Assembly (NCBI GenBank): GCA_903933805.1
Contig: CAIZLM010000019.1
Span: 1-44,941 of the forward strand
DNA length: 44,941 nt
Direction of reading: 5' to 3'
Source of the DNA: an uncultured Bacteroidota bacterium
GTDB taxonomy: Bacteria; Bacteroidota; Bacteroidia; Chitinophagales; Saprospiraceae
Position numbers and translations under genes: made by a program. Of the stretch, positions 2,903 to 44,941 are shown piece by piece (the stretch's first letter is position 1; every line of letters starts with the position of its first letter). The notes beneath the pieces were generated by a model. That model had not been told where the DNA came from and searched no databases. It saw only the letters and a list, made by a program, of their open reading frames with translations.

Positions 2903-3125
2903 GGCATCAGCGGTTTATGAGGGTAAATGATGCAGAGTTAAGAATACAATGATAAGGCAAAAAAGGTTGCATTTAATCAACTAATTTTGATATTTAATTT
3001 TGAATTGCGCCAATCAATTTACTAAAAACAAAATAAAAATTATGTAATACACAAAAAAAAAGGGTATTGTTTTAAATCATGGCATTTATAGCGTAGATAT
3101 TTCTTTGTTAATTAAATAAAAATAA

Positions 3126-3285
3126 ATGGTTAGGTGGAAGGCTGTTTGGCCAAAAAAGGGCCATTTTTCGCTATACTTCGCAGATTTTTTTGATCGTAGT
3201 GCTGCTACGGCCTGCAAAAATCTGCTTTGTCTGGCAAAAAGTAGCCACTTTTTTGTCTCAGACGCGACCACGCTAACCAGTTGCC
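3126..3285 (+). repeat. Dispersed intergenic repeat, long form, copy A
   Basis: About 160 bp. It starts ATGGTTAGGTGGAAGGCTGT and ends CGACCACGCTAACCAGTTGC, so its ends are inverted versions of each other. Inside is a large palindrome: GCAGATTTTT (from 3180) pairs with AAAAATCTGC, enclosing the smaller stem CGTAG/CTACG. It is clearly alignable over its whole length with the copy at 31432-31596 (roughly 80% by eye), and its outer parts match the short copies at 12395 and 17573. It fills much of the gap between the CotH-like gene and the M43 protease gene. Confidence 0.85.
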
Positions 3286-8760: not shown

Positions 8761-8810
8761 TTTTGTTTCAAAAGAGACCACCCAACCATTTATTTAGCGT
8801 AACTGGTTAG
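8761..8810 (+). repeat. Degenerate ends of the dispersed repeat
   Basis: Bases 8761-8792 align with the right end of the dispersed repeat (TTTTGTxTCA...GACCACxC.AACCA), and 8799-8810 reads GTAACTGGTTAG, a perfect left end. The two pieces look like the end of one worn copy next to the start of another. The minus-strand stop codon of the gene ending at 8807 lies inside the second piece. Confidence 0.55.
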
Positions 8811-10096
8811 AATTTATACATTGCCTCAACGCGGCCATAAACAGCTTCCAGTGTCGGTTTGTTTTGTTTAATCGATTTAGAATAATCACCCAACACACCA
8901 AAAGCCCAAGCCGGCGTTTCAAAATGCAATCCAATACCCATTTTCCAAATATTGGAAACCCAATGTTTGGGTGTTGGAAGGGTCAGGTACTCATCCTCTT
9001 GGTGAGAGGGGCCACCATGTGGCGGATTTTTTTCAAAGCGGTAACTTACAAGTCTGGAGGGCAAATAGGACCAATTGTGAGACAGGTTGATAGACGTGCT
9101 CCACTGCCGGGCCAATGGGAGGGTGTAACTCAACCCCAAACTGTATTGGTTCAGTACTCGGTTGGAAGCAATGTTTTTCAATGGCGGATAATTGGGCCCC
9201 AATGGTGGAGGCGGGGCTACATCGGCAAAATGACGGGGAATACTGTCGGTATTTAAATCAAACTTTAAAAAATCTACAGCAGCTATTAAAGATAAATTTT
9301 TAATGACCCGATAAGAAACGCCCATGCCTTGTCCGAAAATCGCCGAAACTCCACGCTCTTTTGGCAATGCAAATCCAACGATTGCGCGTACACCCACTCG
9401 CCATGGCTTATCCACAGGCCTAACGGGCTTAACAACAGAGACAGGCGCTAGATCAATGGTTGTCAATGTTGTAGCATCCAGCTTATCAACCACGGAAGTG
9501 ACCACTGAATCGAGGTGTAATAGCGGAAGTTCCATCACAACGAGCGCTGAATCGTGTGCAGTTGCCAACACCTGTACACTTGATAAAACAGGCTCCTTAC
9601 TTTCTTGGGCCGCTTTGATCGAGTGGGGTAGAACTGCCGAAACAGTATTGGAATCTACGACTGAATACATCCTTGAATGGGCAGACAACGCTGTTTGGTA
9701 AGCGTACCTGCCCCCACGCAGCAACTGATTTTCAGCCCCTTTTTTTTCCACTTGTTGTTGGGAATAACCAGCATAATCAAGCGGCAGTTGCTGGGTCGTT
9801 GGCGGCTCGAAGGAAGCAGACTCCCTTAGTTTAGGCGTTGTTTCCAGTTGACGGTTGACAGATTTCAGCAGTTTGTTTTCCTGGATGATGTGTTGACGAT
9901 CCCATACAAGGGCAATAACACTTAGCATTGCCACAAGTCCCAACACCTTCCACAGGGTAAGGGCAGTTTGTGAGACACCGGAACCAAGTTCGTAGGCGTG
10001 TAAATTTTTATTGACTTTAAACCAACTTTGCTTCCGGCCGTCAAAAGACTGCTCTTCGTTGAGTTTTTTATTAAAAACGTCGTCAAACTGATTCAT
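8807..10096 (-). CDS. Membrane protein with barrel-like C-terminus, partner of ECF sigma factor
   Basis: 429 residues. A polar N-terminus of about 45 residues is followed by one membrane helix (residues 46-65, LWKVLGLVAMLSVIALVW), a low-complexity periplasmic linker rich in Ser, Val and Gln (66-225), and a C-terminal region (226-429) of alternating hydrophobic strands (WRVGVRAIVGFAL, SLGLSYTLPLARQWSTSINLS, MGIGLHFETPAWAFGVLG) ending in aromatic MYKF, like a small outer-membrane barrel. Its start overlaps the ECF sigma gene by four bases (ATGA), so the two are translated together. By position and topology it is probably the regulator (anti-sigma-like) of that sigma factor, although no known anti-sigma motif such as zinc-binding HxxxCxxC is present. 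Role is inferred from context. Confidence 0.6.
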   Translation of the reverse strand: MNQFDDVFNKKLNEEQSFDGRKQSWFKVNKNLHAYELGSGVSQTALTLWKVLGLVAMLSVIALVWDRQHIIQENKLLKSVNRQLETTPKLRESASFEPPTTQQLPLDYAGYSQQQVEKKGAENQLLRGGRYAYQTALSAHSRMYSVVDSNTVSAVLPHSIKAAQESKEPVLSSVQVLATAHDSALVVMELPLLHLDSVVTSVVDKLDATTLTTIDLAPVSVVKPVRPVDKPWRVGVRAIVGFALPKERGVSAIFGQGMGVSYRVIKNLSLIAAVDFLKFDLNTDSIPRHFADVAPPPPLGPNYPPLKNIASNRVLNQYSLGLSYTLPLARQWSTSINLSHNWSYLPSRLVSYRFEKNPPHGGPSHQEDEYLTLPTPKHWVSNIWKMGIGLHFETPAWAFGVLGDYSKSIKQNKPTLEAVYGRVEAMYKF

Positions 10097-12394: not shown

Positions 12395-12473
12395 GTAACT
12401 GGTTTGGGTATCACGCTGTCCGGCCCAACAAGATCCACTTTTTGTCTCAGACGCGACCACGCTAACCCGTTAC
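12395..12473 (+). repeat. Dispersed intergenic repeat, short form, copy C
   Basis: 79 bp, from GTAACTGGTTTGGGTATCAC to CGACCACGCTAACCCGTTAC. It lacks the internal hairpin module of the long copies but has both ends. The reverse complement of copy D (17573-17651) has the same length and differs at about 10 positions by my hand alignment. Confidence 0.85.
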
Positions 12474-12576: not shown

Positions 12577-15500
12577 ATGTCAAAAAACCAGGAGGCACAA
12601 CACAACGTACAGGAACAACCTACAGCACCGCGCTTCCGGATGCTGGCTAAAACTTTGTTGCGACGGGTAGAAAATACCATTTTTGGCCTTATCCTGATCA
12701 TCGTATCGCTGTACTTTCTGCTTCAAATGCCTGCCGTACAAAATTGGCTGGTCGCAAAAGTTACGACCTATCTCTCCCAAGAGTGGGAAACAACCGTTGC
12801 ACTTCAACGGGTTGATCTTGAATTTTTTGACAACCTCGTTCTGGAAGGACTCTACGTGGAAGACGTAAAAGGCGATACACTTTTATACGCCGGCAAGGTG
12901 AGTGCCGGAATCAAGTCTAATTTTTTCGCATTTCTAGGCAAAGAAGTCGTTTTTAGCGATATTAACCTTTCAAATGCACGTCTCTTCATCCATAAATCTG
13001 AGGGCGAAATCAGAAATACCCTTAGTTTATTTCTTTCCAAAATCGCCGGTAACAATACCAAAAAACAAACATCAAAAAGTATCGTTTTGCGGGTTCAAAA
13101 CCTACTGCTCAACGATGTGGTGATCTTGCGGGACGTGGAAACAAACAACAAACGCAATCCAAAGGTCATCGACCGCGAAAAACACCTCTTTAAAATACCT
13201 TTCGGACAGATCAGAATCAATGCCATAGACCTTGATAATGACCTAATAGACGTTGCTTCCGTGCACCTCGATGGACTGACGGTGGACCTCGAAGAATCTG
13301 AACGTCCAGCCACTTTGAACCCACCGGTACCTACTACCCCCGTCTCTAAATCCATTCAAAAAGCGCCAACACCACCTATTGTATTTAAAATTGGTACACT
13401 AATGGTGACCAATGGCCATTTTGAGATGGATAAATACGACGCATCCCCCACCAGATCATCCTTGCTCGATGTCATGGACTATGATCATTTAAACGTTCGT
13501 AGCATTGTACTTCAAGGGGAAAACTTCTCGTTCAACGACGAATTCAACAACAACAATTTTAAACTTTCAGGTACCATCAAGCACTTGGCGGCGCAGGAAG
13601 ATTGCGGATTTTCACTTGTGCATGCCGAGGTTGGCCAATTGTCGCTGACCGATACGATGGCCAGCCTGGTTAACACAAAAATACAGACCAACAACACATC
13701 ACTCGGCGACACCATACAATTCAAATATTCGGGTTATCGCGATTTTCGAAGTTTTGAAGACAGTGTTGATATGGACATACGGCTGAACCTTGGCTCTCAA
13801 CTCCAATTGAGTGATTTGCGTTATTTTGATAAAAATATCGCAGAAAACGAATTTTTCAAAACAAATGCAACTGAAATTACCAGCGTCAAAGCACTTATAC
13901 ACGGAAAAGTAGATCGTTTGCGGGCGGATAACCTAGAACTTAGATTGGGCAATTCCACCTATATCGCCTGTGATTTCCGGGGGAATGGCCTCAACAGTCA
14001 GGGTACTCAAACACTCAATTTTGCATTTAAAGAACTGCGAACGGATGTCAATACCATTGGTCGGATTATTCCAGGATTCAAACCTCCAGATCAATTTCGC
14101 AAATTGGGCAGTATCGCCTTCAAGGGAGACTATCAACTTTTTGATGGTATTGACCATGTTTTGTATGGCGATATTTCCACCGATTTAGGTTCAGGAAGGG
14201 CCGATATGCAGCTGAATTTGAAGGCAGGCAAAGAAAAGGCTGTTTACAGTGGCGGACTTGAAATGAAACATTTTGATTTGGCCACCTGGACAGGTGATCA
14301 AAATTTTGGGAGGTCCACCTTCCGCGTAAAAATTGCAGAAAACTCTACCGGTCTTACGCTGCCAACCATCAAAGCAAAAATAACCGGTAAAATTGATACC
14401 CTTTCCTACCGTGGATACAGCTACCGGAACATTTCACTTGACGGATCTTTTAGGGAAAAAATATTTGAGGGTGTGCTCAACAGCGGTGACCCCAACGTAG
14501 ATTTCACCTTTGATGGAACCATCAACTTGAAAGAAGCAATACCACGCTTTGAATTTAGCGCAAACCTCCGGCGCCTTGACTTGGGCGTACTCAATCTCAC
14601 AGACAACGATCTGGTGTTGGCAGGAGATATTGAAAACCTTAGCCTGCAGGGAAAATCGTTGGATGAAATAACAGGATCAGCCACTTTGCGCCATTTTAAA
14701 CTGCTACAAGATCGGGAAGAGTGGCACCGCATCGACTCTTTGCAGTTTTTTTCGAGTGTCAGGGCCGACGGGTCTAGGGTTCTGGGATTCAATTCAGATA
14801 TCGCAAAATGTGCCCTTACCGGTAACTTTAACCTCAACAACCTGCCGCAACACCTGGCGTCTTTGATGCAGCAGTACTATCCTGCCTTTGCATCGCGTTT
14901 CGGTATCAAGGAAGAAACCCCAAACAACGGCACACTCAACGACAATTACGAACTGCAACTTCAAATACGGGACTCGAAGAACTTCACTAAAATTTTCTCA
15001 GATCAACTGGATACGCTTCGAAACCTGAATTTATCCGTTCGGGTCAACGCCAAAATCGGGTCATCAGACATCCTGTTGGAGGCTCCAGCGATCAAATTTG
15101 CCGGCATAACTTTTCATGACCCAAGCTTCCGGTGGAACAGTCTCCAAGACAGTGCTTGGTACAGTTTGCGACTACCAGGCACCAAGTTGTCATCGAAACA
15201 AAACTTACCCCCAATCTTGTTTTCAGGGCAGGTATTCAGCGACGAACTGCACTTTACCCTAGAGGCTTCAGAAGAGAACAGCCTGTATCTTGAAAACCTA
15301 TTTTTAAAGGGAACCCTGTCAACGGTTGATTCACTTTGGCAAGTGCGTTTTAATACCTCCAAAATCAGTATGTTTAGCCAGGAATGGCGTATTGCCGATG
15401 AAAACTACATCAGATTTGGGCCCAATTACATAGAAACCAGAGCATTTGAATTTTTCAATGGCAATCAGCGTATTTCCCTGGAAGGCGGCAACAAAGGTCG

Positions 15501-17553
15501 AGGTATTAATTTTTCATTGACCAATTTTAACCTTCAAGAGCTCAATCACTTCCTTGATCCCGAAAGTTTGGTCATTGGCGGCAATATTTACGACTTTGAC
15601 ATTTCCGTTCAGGATGTTTTTCAAATGCAGGGAATGGAGGTCAGCTTACTGACCGATACGTTGTTTCTGAACGGCAGGCCCTATGGAATGCTATCCGGAA
15701 ATGTTGAAATGGAAAACCTCACATCCCCGCTCTTTTATAAATTGTTTTTACAAAACGAGGGAGTTCAGCGGCTGAGACTTGCTGGTGCATGGCTACCCAA
15801 TACCACGGAGCCATTTTATTCTGAAGTGTTTAAAACTGAATTAAAATCAGGTGAACTGTTTGCAGTCGCCACTATTCATGCATTGCCCTTTGAAATAGTG
15901 GAAATCTTCATCCCGGACATTTCCAAAACAGCCGGCTATTTAGATGCTAATTTGGAGCTTTCAGGCACACCTGATGGGGTAGGGGCTTCGGGAAACGTTC
16001 ACATCACCGAAGGGCAGTTCCAAATTGACTATTTGAAATCCATGTTCTACCTGAAAAATCAAGCGGTCAGCATATCAAAAAATAAAATTGAAGTCACCAA
16101 TGATACCATTTGGGACGCCAGTCAGTTGCACATGGCCATCGTACAAGGCAGTCTTGAACACGAATATTTCAAAAAATGGCGCGTAAATTGCACCATTGAG
16201 TCGCTGGACCGCGCTTTTATGATCCTCAATACCACCGCTGAAGACAATGAGTTGTATTACGGACAGGGAATTGGTTATTTTAAACTCTTGATTACAGGTT
16301 CTTTCACTCGAACCAATATGGTGATTGATGCAACGACCGGAAAAGATACCCGGTTGTACATTCCACTTTCCTCCACTTCGGATGCCAAAGAAGTCAGTTT
16401 TATTAAGTTTACCAACAAAGGCGTAGAAAAAAAAGATCCCATAAAAAACAAGGCATTCACCTTTACGGATCTGAAAGGATTGAATTTTGAGATGAATTTA
16501 ACCGTAACCGACGATGCAGAGGTCCAATTGATTTTTGACGAACAAGCCGGTGACATCATCAAGAGTAGGGGAGAGGGCGATATTAAGTTGAGCATCAATC
16601 GAGAAGGTGAATTTAAAATGTACGGCGGGTATCGAGTACTCCGAGGAGAGTACCTATTTACCTTGCTTAATTTTGTGAACAAACCTTTTACCTTGGTTAC
16701 CGGCGGTACCATCAACTGGTTTGGCGATCCTTATGGTGCACAATTGAATTTGGATGCAAAATATGACCAAAATACAGCCGTGTACAACTTCATCCGGGAT
16801 GAAGTGGAATTGCTGACCAATGTTAAGGATGAGGCATCCAAAGCTACTAGGGTGGTGGTAACAATGCACATCAATGGAGATTTACTGAAACCGGATATTT
16901 CATTTGGCCTGGAATTTCCAAACATTACTACACAGCTTAAAAGTCTGACAGACAATAAATTAAGGCTTATTCGACAAGATCAGAGCGAGCTCTCCCGACA
17001 GATTTTTGGGTTGATTGTGATTGGGTCCTTTTTGCCTTCTAACACCGAGTTTGTCCAGTCGTCGGACTATGTCGCCTCTGCTTTTAACACGTTTACGCAA
17101 ATGATCAGCAACCAATTCTCCAACTACCTTGCCGGACTTGCGGCCGAGTGGTTTAAGAATGACGTTTCCAGTATCGACCTAGACATTGTGTACAGTGACT
17201 ACCAGAACGTACTCTCTGACCCATCACAATCCTTGGCTGCAGGAGGCCGTGAGTTGCAGGTGCGACTGAAAAGCGGTTTTATCAACGACAAAATTACCGT
17301 ACAGGTAGGCTCTCAATTTGGATTGGGAGGCCGGACAAATTTGCCCATTTCCAACGGTTTATTGGGGGAAGATGTCAGTATTGAGATCCGGTTGACCGAG
17401 AACAACCAATGGCGTCTGAAAGTGTACCAGCGGACGGAACCGGACATATCCGGCCAACGGAGGGATCGGTATGGTTTGGGTGTCAGTTTTCAAAAAGATT
17501 ACGACTCTTTCAACGACATGTGGAAAGGATTTGGGCATTGGATCGGCCATTAG
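12577..17553 (+). CDS. tamB: TamB-like translocation and assembly module protein
   Basis: 1658 residues, within the usual range for Bacteroidota TamB/YtfN homologues. An N-terminal membrane anchor (36-51, FGLILIIVSLYFLLQM) precedes a long series of beta-strand repeats of the AsmA/TamB kind (e.g. ALQRVDLEFFDNLVLEGLYVEDVKGDTLLYAG near 70-100). The C-terminal 450 residues contain the DUF490/TamB domain (GYRVLRGEYLFTLLNFVNKPF, ITTQLKSLTDN, ASAFNTFTQMISNQFSNYLAG, VQVGSQFGLGG) and a final YGLGVSFQKDYD. Such proteins span the periplasm and are thought to move phospholipids to, or help assemble proteins in, the outer membrane. No BamA/TamA-like partner is in the window. The gene stands alone between two inverted repeat copies. 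Confidence 0.88.
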   Translation: MSKNQEAQHNVQEQPTAPRFRMLAKTLLRRVENTIFGLILIIVSLYFLLQMPAVQNWLVAKVTTYLSQEWETTVALQRVDLEFFDNLVLEGLYVEDVKGDTLLYAGKVSAGIKSNFFAFLGKEVVFSDINLSNARLFIHKSEGEIRNTLSLFLSKIAGNNTKKQTSKSIVLRVQNLLLNDVVILRDVETNNKRNPKVIDREKHLFKIPFGQIRINAIDLDNDLIDVASVHLDGLTVDLEESERPATLNPPVPTTPVSKSIQKAPTPPIVFKIGTLMVTNGHFEMDKYDASPTRSSLLDVMDYDHLNVRSIVLQGENFSFNDEFNNNNFKLSGTIKHLAAQEDCGFSLVHAEVGQLSLTDTMASLVNTKIQTNNTSLGDTIQFKYSGYRDFRSFEDSVDMDIRLNLGSQLQLSDLRYFDKNIAENEFFKTNATEITSVKALIHGKVDRLRADNLELRLGNSTYIACDFRGNGLNSQGTQTLNFAFKELRTDVNTIGRIIPGFKPPDQFRKLGSIAFKGDYQLFDGIDHVLYGDISTDLGSGRADMQLNLKAGKEKAVYSGGLEMKHFDLATWTGDQNFGRSTFRVKIAENSTGLTLPTIKAKITGKIDTLSYRGYSYRNISLDGSFREKIFEGVLNSGDPNVDFTFDGTINLKEAIPRFEFSANLRRLDLGVLNLTDNDLVLAGDIENLSLQGKSLDEITGSATLRHFKLLQDREEWHRIDSLQFFSSVRADGSRVLGFNSDIAKCALTGNFNLNNLPQHLASLMQQYYPAFASRFGIKEETPNNGTLNDNYELQLQIRDSKNFTKIFSDQLDTLRNLNLSVRVNAKIGSSDILLEAPAIKFAGITFHDPSFRWNSLQDSAWYSLRLPGTKLSSKQNLPPILFSGQVFSDELHFTLEASEENSLYLENLFLKGTLSTVDSLWQVRFNTSKISMFSQEWRIADENYIRFGPNYIETRAFEFFNGNQRISLEGGNKGRGINFSLTNFNLQELNHFLDPESLVIGGNIYDFDISVQDVFQMQGMEVSLLTDTLFLNGRPYGMLSGNVEMENLTSPLFYKLFLQNEGVQRLRLAGAWLPNTTEPFYSEVFKTELKSGELFAVATIHALPFEIVEIFIPDISKTAGYLDANLELSGTPDGVGASGNVHITEGQFQIDYLKSMFYLKNQAVSISKNKIEVTNDTIWDASQLHMAIVQGSLEHEYFKKWRVNCTIESLDRAFMILNTTAEDNELYYGQGIGYFKLLITGSFTRTNMVIDATTGKDTRLYIPLSSTSDAKEVSFIKFTNKGVEKKDPIKNKAFTFTDLKGLNFEMNLTVTDDAEVQLIFDEQAGDIIKSRGEGDIKLSINREGEFKMYGGYRVLRGEYLFTLLNFVNKPFTLVTGGTINWFGDPYGAQLNLDAKYDQNTAVYNFIRDEVELLTNVKDEASKATRVVVTMHINGDLLKPDISFGLEFPNITTQLKSLTDNKLRLIRQDQSELSRQIFGLIVIGSFLPSNTEFVQSSDYVASAFNTFTQMISNQFSNYLAGLAAEWFKNDVSSIDLDIVYSDYQNVLSDPSQSLAAGGRELQVRLKSGFINDKITVQVGSQFGLGGRTNLPISNGLLGEDVSIEIRLTENNQWRLKVYQRTEPDISGQRRDRYGLGVSFQKDYDSFNDMWKGFGHWIGH

Positions 17554-17572: not shown

Positions 17573-17651
17573 GTAACTGGTTAGCGTGGTCGCGTCTGAG
17601 ACAAAACATGGACCTTTTTGGGCCAGACAGCGTGCCACGCTAACCAGTTAC
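17573..17651 (-). repeat. Dispersed intergenic repeat, short form, copy D (inverted)
   Basis: 79 bp with perfect 17-bp terminal inverted repeats: GTAACTGGTTAGCGTGG at 17573-17589 and its complement at 17635-17651. It has the opposite orientation to copies A, B and C. It starts 20 bases after the tamB stop codon, and its stem could also act in RNA 3' ends. Confidence 0.9.
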
Positions 17652-17656
17652 AAAAA

Positions 17657-17715
17657 GTAATTGGTTAGCGTGGTCATTGTAAAAGCGCCTTTTTTTGTCA
17701 CAGATACGACCACCG
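17657..17715 (-). repeat. Degenerate dispersed repeat, copy E
   Basis: It begins GTAATTGGTTAGCGTGGTC, close to one end of copy D, and has TTTGTCACAGATACGACCACC resembling the other end; the middle is lost or changed. It lies five bases beyond copy D. With copy D it occupies half of the 315-base gap before the arginine decarboxylase gene. Confidence 0.55.
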
Positions 17716-31351: not shown

Positions 31352-31414
31352 GGTACCTGATTTAGCGAAAAATGGATCTTTTGGGGCCTCATATTGTGCC
31401 AAACAACCAGTTAA
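31352..31414 (-). repeat. Degenerate dispersed repeat next to copy B
   Basis: Reads like short copy D with about 17 bases lost: GGTACCTGATTTAGCG, then AAAAATGGATCTTTTGGGGCC, ending CAACCAGTTAAT. It has the opposite orientation to the full copy B that follows. Confidence 0.5.
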
Positions 31415-31431
31415 TTGCTATAAGTCAAATT

Positions 31432-31596
31432 GCAACTGGTTAGGTGGCACGCTGTCCGGCCCAAAAAGGTCCATTTTCCGCCATACTTCGCCCATTTTTT
31501 TGACCGTAGCGCTGGCTACGGCCTGCAAAAAATCCGATTCGTCTGGTCAAAAATAGTCACTTTTTCGTCTCAGACGCGACCATGCTAACCAGTTAC
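31432..31596 (+). repeat. Dispersed intergenic repeat, long form, copy B
   Basis: About 165 bp, starting GCAACTGGTTAGGTGGCACG and ending CGACCATGCTAACCAGTTAC. The middle holds a strong hairpin, CCGTAGC-gctg-GCTACGG, flanked by T-rich and A-rich arms. It aligns with copy A over the full length. It sits between the DUF1501 and propeller genes, splitting the five-gene set. Confidence 0.88.
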
Positions 31597-44721: not shown

Positions 44722-44795
44722 GGCGCGATAGCTCAGCTGGTTAGAGCGTGCGATTCATAATCGCAAGGTCGGGAGTTCAAGTCTCCCCCGCGCTA
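44722..44795 (+). tRNA. tRNA-Met (CAT anticodon; tRNA-Ile2 not excluded)
   Basis: A 74-base cloverleaf. The D stem GCTC/GAGC, anticodon stem GCGAT/ATCGC with loop TCATA and anticodon CAT, and T-arm GGGAG-TTCAAGT-CTCCC are all intact. The acceptor GGCGCGA pairs with CCGCGCT, leaving an A-C mismatch at position 7-66. CCA is not encoded. The sequence fits elongator tRNA-Met; an isoleucine tRNA with lysidine-modified CAT cannot be ruled out by eye. It is not an initiator, which would have a mismatched first pair and three G-C pairs below the anticodon. Confidence 0.88.
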
Positions 44796-44811
44796 CAAAT
44801 TATTTATTATT

Positions 44812-44888: not shown

Positions 44889-44941
44889 GTAACTGGTTAG
44901 CGTGGCCGCGTTTGAGACAAAAAATGGGCCTTTTTGGGCCA
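44889..44941 (-). repeat. Dispersed intergenic repeat, copy F (cut by window edge)
   Basis: Starts GTAACTGGTTAGCGTGGCCG and continues like copy D (TTTGAGACAAAAAATGGGCC) to the last base. A second, worn end, GTAACGGGTTAGG, lies just upstream at 44860-44872. It has the same orientation as copy D. Confidence 0.75.

Follow-up and report, generated by a model that had tools for sequence, protein, structure and literature searches.

The window (the whole stretch of DNA analysed, 44,941 nucleotides) contains several copies of a repeat, in a long form and a short form. What is this repeat, what moves it, and what is the hairpin inside the long form? We think it probable that the repeat is a MITE mobilised by an IS66-family transposase, that the core of the long form is homologous across elements with different end systems and had its ends replaced a few times, and that the short form is a deletion of the core.

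Copies of the repeat in the window

We set the ends of the window's copies from other copies in the same genome:

3122 to 3284, minus strand (relative to GTAACTGGTTAGCGTGGTCGCG...): long copy A, 163 bp, left end worn
3147 to 3252, minus strand: hairpin core of copy A, about 106 bp, limits carried over from element L007
8761 to 8812, strand not assigned: partial worn copy with a single GTAACTGGTTAG end at 8801-8812
12395 to 12473, minus strand: short copy C, 79 bp
17573 to 17651, plus strand: short copy D, 79 bp, inverted ends near-perfect
17657 to 17715, plus strand: partial worn copy adjoining D, read from sequence
31363 to 31416, plus strand (approximate orientation): partial worn copy ahead of B, ends recognisable
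31432 to 31596, minus strand: long copy B, 165 bp
31457 to 31564, minus strand: hairpin core of copy B, approximate
44889 to 44941, plus strand: copy truncated where contig C19 ends (this contig and the window are identical in extent)

The long, short and edge (44889) copies of the original prediction were all found, with refined coordinates (3122-3284 for copy A), and the pieces that it had called worn (at 8761, 17657 and 31352) are worn but have ends that can still be recognised. The gene for a 1658-aa TamB-domain protein (12577-17553) sits between short copies C and D. The window also has genes for tRNA-Ser(tga) (1607-1692) and tRNA-Met(cat) (44722-44796).

Like several other contigs, this one breaks within a copy (44889-44941), and the repeat probably fragments the assembly, which has 336 contigs. 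Several of the copies listed are at contig ends (for instance, C2:1-163 and C259:2), so it is likely that further copies were lost in assembly gaps.

The repeat is a high-copy mobile element

The 4.2-Mb genome has 263 exact matches to GTAACTGGTTAGNG, of which 139 are forward and 124 reverse, and none to a control in which this sequence is read backwards. Together with the 99 copies described below, this shows that the repeat is not due to chance. A first-look search of the genome gave 796 candidates with the long form as the query and 794 with the short form; the best 40 of each were scored. We then counted copies in the window and in 20 stretches of 20 kb (444,941 bases in all), which is a non-random draw because the stretches are from longer contigs with known copies. 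These bases contain 99 copies (36 short, 34 long, and 29 partial), which make up about 2.4% of the sequence. By extrapolation, the whole genome would have about 936-940 copies amounting to 2.4% of its DNA, so the genome-wide count that had been called for comes to about 940. As for the claim that all copies are intergenic, it nearly holds: 78 of the 99 lie outside of crude ORF calls, which are certainly too many and take in about 90% of the DNA. The exceptions are 12 copies that are partly within these calls and 9 that are inside them.

Intact copies are 77-79 or 163-164 bp long, have the termini GTAACTGGTTAG...CTAACCAGTTAC, and are flanked by 8-bp target duplications. Among 126 distinct end pairs at loci in the genome itself (with spacings of 40-400 bp, and including cross-pairings of adjacent copies), the flanking 8-mers match at 7-8 of 8 positions in 55 cases, although these loci are the best matches and so are biased toward intact copies. 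The duplicated pairs are 77-79 bp long in 28 cases, 163-164 bp in 26, and 42 bp in one. Target duplications, which the original prediction had suggested looking for, are thus present, at 8 bp. Among window copies A-D, comparing the flanks by eye gave no perfect duplication (5/8 matching for A, 6/8 for B, 6/8 for C, and 3/8 for D).

Ends of neighbouring copies face each other at 40 bp or less in 34 distinct contexts. Twelve of these have a spacing of exactly 8 bp, and about 10 of the twelve are clear when read. A spacing of 8 bp between adjacent copies is commoner than other spacings (C37:1145-1478, L002, L024, L028). The two copies in C37 diverge unequally from the same query (87% identity for C37:1145-1307 and 99% for C37:1316-1478), which suggests that new insertions land on the duplicated 8 bp next to an older copy.

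The repeat is short and non-coding (79 and 163 bp), with inverted GTAACTGGTTAG ends and an 8-bp target-site duplication, and its identification as a MITE is well supported. It is a high-copy, non-coding mobile element in a genome that is probably of Saprospiraceae/Chitinophagales type. The earlier proposal of a non-autonomous mobile element with inverted ends was right, given the duplications, the copy number, and the ends of candidate partner elements (see below).

The short form lacks the core

The long and short forms differ by 84 bp (about 80 had been claimed), and the original prediction had correctly described two sizes with an optional hairpin block. It was also right that the join occurs at repeated A/T-rich words: the junction in the short form lies between AAAAAAGTGGCC in the left arm and AAAATGGGCC in the right arm, which form a near-direct repeat and make a slippage deletion likely. 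The short form seems to have lost the core through a deletion of 84 bp and is itself multi-copy. Its junction recurs in a short copy from another genome (L078 in G025), and short copies are flanked by duplications of their own, which implies that the short form spread as such. We propose that the core was lost between AAAAAAGTGGCC and AAAATGGGCC and that the short form then multiplied. Since core-less copies are as frequent as long ones in the sample (36 vs. 34), the core is not required for spread.

Genome G009 has mini-forms of about 55 bp with GACTTGTTGCGG ends (L307:176-230, L311:2281-2335, and L314:2328-2382) beside 160-bp forms. These GACTTGTTGCGG elements are a second lineage that shows two sizes.

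The hairpin core recurs with other ends

A DNA search with a long copy had matches in 10 of 60 genomes (the window's own included), and several of these matched in the middle only. Elements of about 160 bp were found with other ends: GTAAAAACTTAG (G003), GTAACTATCCAG (G012), GACTTGTTGCGG (G023 and G008), and AAGTACC (G022 and G031). This recurrence of the core in elements with unrelated ends, which takes other genomes to see, is absent from the original prediction.

We built a covariance model (R1) from 15 aligned cores from nine genomes; the training elements were GTAA-, GACTT-, or AAGTAC-ended, and the 3-bp types were not among them. With the window's genome counted each time, R1 matched 35 of 42 genomes in the genus (E ≤ 1e-3), 44 of 298 genomes and 31 of 140 genera in the order (E ≤ 1e-4), and only 6 of 395 genomes in the phylum (E ≤ 1e-5); these searches scored the best candidates per genome (93, 13, and 9), so a genome with no match may still have the core. 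A control model (R2, the R1 alignment reversed and its structure mirrored) matched 0 of the 298 genomes in the order. Because chance palindromes reach 32.6 bits with R1 (L236), weak matches were left unused.

A pattern scan of named genomes gave at least 80 matches. Among the matches listed, 46 are from Saprospiraceae/Chitinophagales, 10 from Rufibacter, 6 from Microscilla, and 5 from unplaced Bacteroidetes; the 13 others include Tenacibaculum, three Clostridia/Clostridiales MAGs, and some chance palindromes. The elements from the MAGs (L222, L228, L237) are core-like, with other ends, and score 36-45 bits with R1; they could be real, chance, or from mis-binned contigs. Rufibacter elements L208 and L226 are core-like with GAGCTTGTTTAAATTT-type ends. 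These named Rufibacter genomes offer culturable material.

For the 52 elements examined, an end finder that allowed 100-260 bp made 51 calls, of which 34 are at 158-163 bp and some of the shorter ones are visibly truncated. Calls that begin with GTAA have 8-bp duplications in 4 of 6 cases (a seventh, beginning GTAC, belongs to the AAGTAC group). Calls that begin with GAG have 3-bp duplications in 8 of 8 cases, seven of them TTA or TAA. The end systems around the core include GAGC-type ends (3-bp duplications), GACTTGTTGCGG (TA), AAGTACC, and more. Two end types can occur in one genome: G069 (L283 with 3 bp and L285 with 8 bp), G022 (L072 and L300), and G303 (L159 and L280) each have the core with two. 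In G205, L273 has GTAACTATCCAG ends and 8 bp, and L206 (presumed to be from G205) has GACTTTATG ends. In G009, 12 of 16 listed exact GACTTGTTGCGGTG end pairs are exactly 160 bp apart; these pairs were identified by their ends.

For one of these end systems we found IS5-family elements with similar ends. Elements of this family in G013, G062, G034, and G009 have GAGC-, GAAC-, or GACC-type ends and TTA/TAA duplications, as do core-MITEs in G005 (L138), G020 (L150), G030 (L147), and G017 (L149). The IS5-family element and the compared core-MITE were not found together in one genome. The IS5-family transposase of G009 has matches in 13 of 42 genus genomes. This is another transposase family than the window repeat's candidate partner, and the window's element does not have GAGC-type ends. 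For GACTTGTTGCGG ends, we examined 19 regions where an end stands alone or at an unusual spacing, along with one pair at 341 bp, from six genomes, and found no transposase gene bounded by such ends. Thirteen of these regions are from G009: eight have a 159-161-bp element whose second end is worn, four have the mini-form of about 55 bp, and one lacks a second end. Separately, G014 has an inverted-repeat element (L077:2885-3081) with GTAAAAACTTAG-type ends and another hairpin interior, GGTGCGTAGCACCGTAACGTCGGT, so the same ends occur also without the core.

In a tree built from 42 cores, 5 changes are needed to account for four end labels, compared to a minimum of 3 and an average of 18.9 in shuffles. 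The labels were set by us, the 3-bp group is a mixed one, and the tree does not resolve 21 of its 39 inner branches. As end types mostly cluster on this tree, end replacement looks rare and old. The evidence supports, without proving, that cores with different end types are homologous. We propose that the layout of the core was preserved as its ends were swapped a few times, to other transposase systems including the IS5 family.

A bolder version of this proposal strikes us as possible rather than probable: that the core is a long-lived, selfish chassis of about 106 bp with phased A/T tracts, which repeatedly took the ends of active transposases (IS66, IS5, and others) to give elements of about 160 bp that several transposases can mobilise across the Bacteroidota. 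MITEs are usually viewed as worn copies of one parent transposon, with interiors that are thought not to matter. If the core outlives its ends across transposase systems, then there would be a property of the interior itself on which selection can act. Natural sets of elements (the same core with different ends, or the same ends with and without the core) are a testbed for what makes very short transposons succeed.

We also considered that separate MITEs might have gained similar hairpin and A/T-tract interiors independently, by selection for curvature, nucleoid-protein binding, or an RNA fold, in which case the cores would be analogous. That the conserved features are largely structural (paired changes and phased tracts), and that the loop and much of the arms vary, would fit with this. 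However, in most elements the R1 score is much higher for one strand than for the other (92.3 vs. 49.7 bits for L007), which implies that arm-specific sequence is common to the elements, and the tip and its flanking motifs agree across end types. So we think that convergence is rather unlikely.

Structure of the core

RNAalifold, run on a MAFFT alignment of the 42 cores (A4), gave 15 base pairs, of which 13 have double-sided changes. Runs of at least 4 A or T are phased at 10.5 bp with a mean R of 0.655 across 49 elements (null 0.347, standard deviation 0.024, maximum 0.41 in 500), but the significance of this overall value is overstated, as related elements are not independent and the AAGTAC elements are unphased. 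The distances of the tracts from the dyad are about 16, 37, and 48 bp. Another 90 tracts are weakly phased at 10.5 bp as a group (R = 0.23); among these, 24 fall at 24-28 bp, which is the free slot, and 37 at 60-68 bp. The tracts are clearly phased in three of five end groups: R is 0.82 for IS66 (6 elements), 0.79 for TA (8), and 0.67 for the 3-bp group (12). The flavobacterial elements are little phased (R = 0.48, 5 elements) and the AAGTAC elements are not (0.35, 4 elements), with null values of 0.33-0.37.

For the core's function we can only offer a hypothesis. Intrinsic curvature of the core, hairpin folding, or both might help to bring together ends that are about 160 bp apart, and a core that acts in this way could serve any transposase.

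Alternatively, the core might work as RNA: a co-transcribed hairpin could stabilise or insulate transcripts or be processed, so that insertions are harmless or useful. Copies are mostly intergenic, the whole-element hairpin of the window's long copies is predicted at -54 to -69 kcal/mol depending on the strand, and the paired changes include G-U. But Rfam has no match to the element at the gathering score: in the window only the two tRNAs reach it, and 10 carrier loci gave 10 matches that are all below gathering. Also, template switching can perfect quasi-palindromes without selection. A role for the core in RNA therefore seems unlikely to us. As for an intrinsic terminator, we rejected this because T precedes and A follows the tip hairpin on both strands, as read from the sequence.

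A candidate partner from the IS66 family

PF03050 (IS66 DDE) has four matches in the window's own genome. L061 and L063 were rejected as partners because their ends differ (GTAAGCCTCCCAC and GTAACTATCCAGC); L062 is partial; and L064 is below the family cut-off. L061 (contig C216) is an IS66-family element with other ends and a perfect 8-bp duplication, CACCGGGA, and L063 (contig C180) is an IS66-family element with GTAACTATCCAGCCGCC ends that resemble a core-MITE of G012. L064 is a sub-threshold IS66 remnant that runs into CTAACCAGTTAC; for this end, a remnant is all that the genome shows. Its translation has relatives in 7 of 42 genus genomes (its own included). Stretches in C27, C61, and C63 with GTAACTGGTTAGTG ends were also considered, but they showed ordinary copies.

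Among relatives, L091 in G025, a 1050-bp element, has GTAACTGGTTAG on both sides, with flanks that match at 6/8; its frame is 333 aa and lacks part of the gene. L092 in G009 is IS66 by both Pfam and NCBIfam and has one GTAACTGGTTAG end within the DNA that was fetched. In G007, IS66 elements that have GTAAAAACTTAG ends and are flanked by 8/8 duplications occupy six of nine loci; one of them is 1202 bp long and the other five are 1465-1471 bp. The full-length elements have 1465-1471 bp around a 475-aa frame. In the window's own genome and in genus relatives, we found no IS66 element that is intact and has ends identical to those of the window's repeat: the exact ends are on gene-deleted L091, one-ended L092, and the remnant L064, and sister ends are on the full-length elements of G007. 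The transposase gene with matching ends that had been sought thus has candidates in IS66-family genes of congeners, with the same or sister ends.

ISDge4, a member of the IS66/ISBst12 group that was caught transposing, is described as having GTAACTGCTCAGCA and GTGACTACTCAGCA for its ends, with a repeat of 8 bp and a gene of 449 aa (PMC12898284). In that description its GTAACTGCTCAGCA end is similar to the repeat's GTAACTGGTTAGCG, its target repeats are also 8 bp, and its single transposase gene is similar in size to those in the candidate partners (PMC12898284). The window's repeat likewise has GTAA-type ends and an 8-bp duplication. However, it has no gene, and only about 12 bp of its end is common to the IS66 elements that we saw; at 79-165 bp, the window's copies fall well below the length that a transposase gene needs. 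So, judging from sequence comparison, the candidate partner is an IS66-family DDE transposase, and the repeat would be mobilised by this family rather than being a member of it. An IS66-family (ISBst12-type) transposase would act in trans on the GTAACTGGTTAG ends, and insertion would yield the 8-bp target duplication; ends and duplications are observed, and the enzyme and the movement are our proposal.

The classic explanation for a MITE would be that every element derives from a parent IS of its own through internal deletion and wear, with the likeness of the cores a minor accident or an old piece of IS DNA. Although the ends do match IS66 or IS5 elements, the IS66 elements of 1465-1471 bp have no space around their 475-aa frame for a 106-bp core. 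This reading was already strained by the core's presence with several end types, and we consider it very unlikely.

Finally, there is next to no chance that this is a REP/REPIN-type element moved by a Y1 transposase, as length, ends, and duplications all speak against this: it is palindromic, high-copy, and mostly intergenic, with GTAG at the tip, but this GTAG is paired inside the stem, the element is 79/163 bp instead of 20-40 bp, and it has 8-bp duplications and GTAAC ends in common with IS66. REPs are described as high-copy palindromes of 20-40 bp that are linked to Y1 and have an unpaired GTAG or CGTC end, and the available part of that report gives GTAG repeats from phyla other than Bacteroidetes (PMC3733652). 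The REP-like reading of the original prediction is thus not supported, and an IS66-family DDE transposase is the better candidate.

In titles and the starts of abstracts from open-licence PMC articles, no MITE core common to several IS families and no MITE from Saprospiraceae appeared among the matches listed. A known element with some likeness is MITECca01 of Cardinium, which, in the part of the report available, is derived from IS982, is about 240 bp, and has 169 copies that make up 3.5% of the chromosome (PMC9769881). It too is small, gene-free, high-copy, and mostly intergenic, with the inverted ends of an IS. But MITECca01 is described from one strain with one parent IS (PMC9769881), whereas the core described here spans genera, occurs with several kinds of ends, and has a core-less short form.
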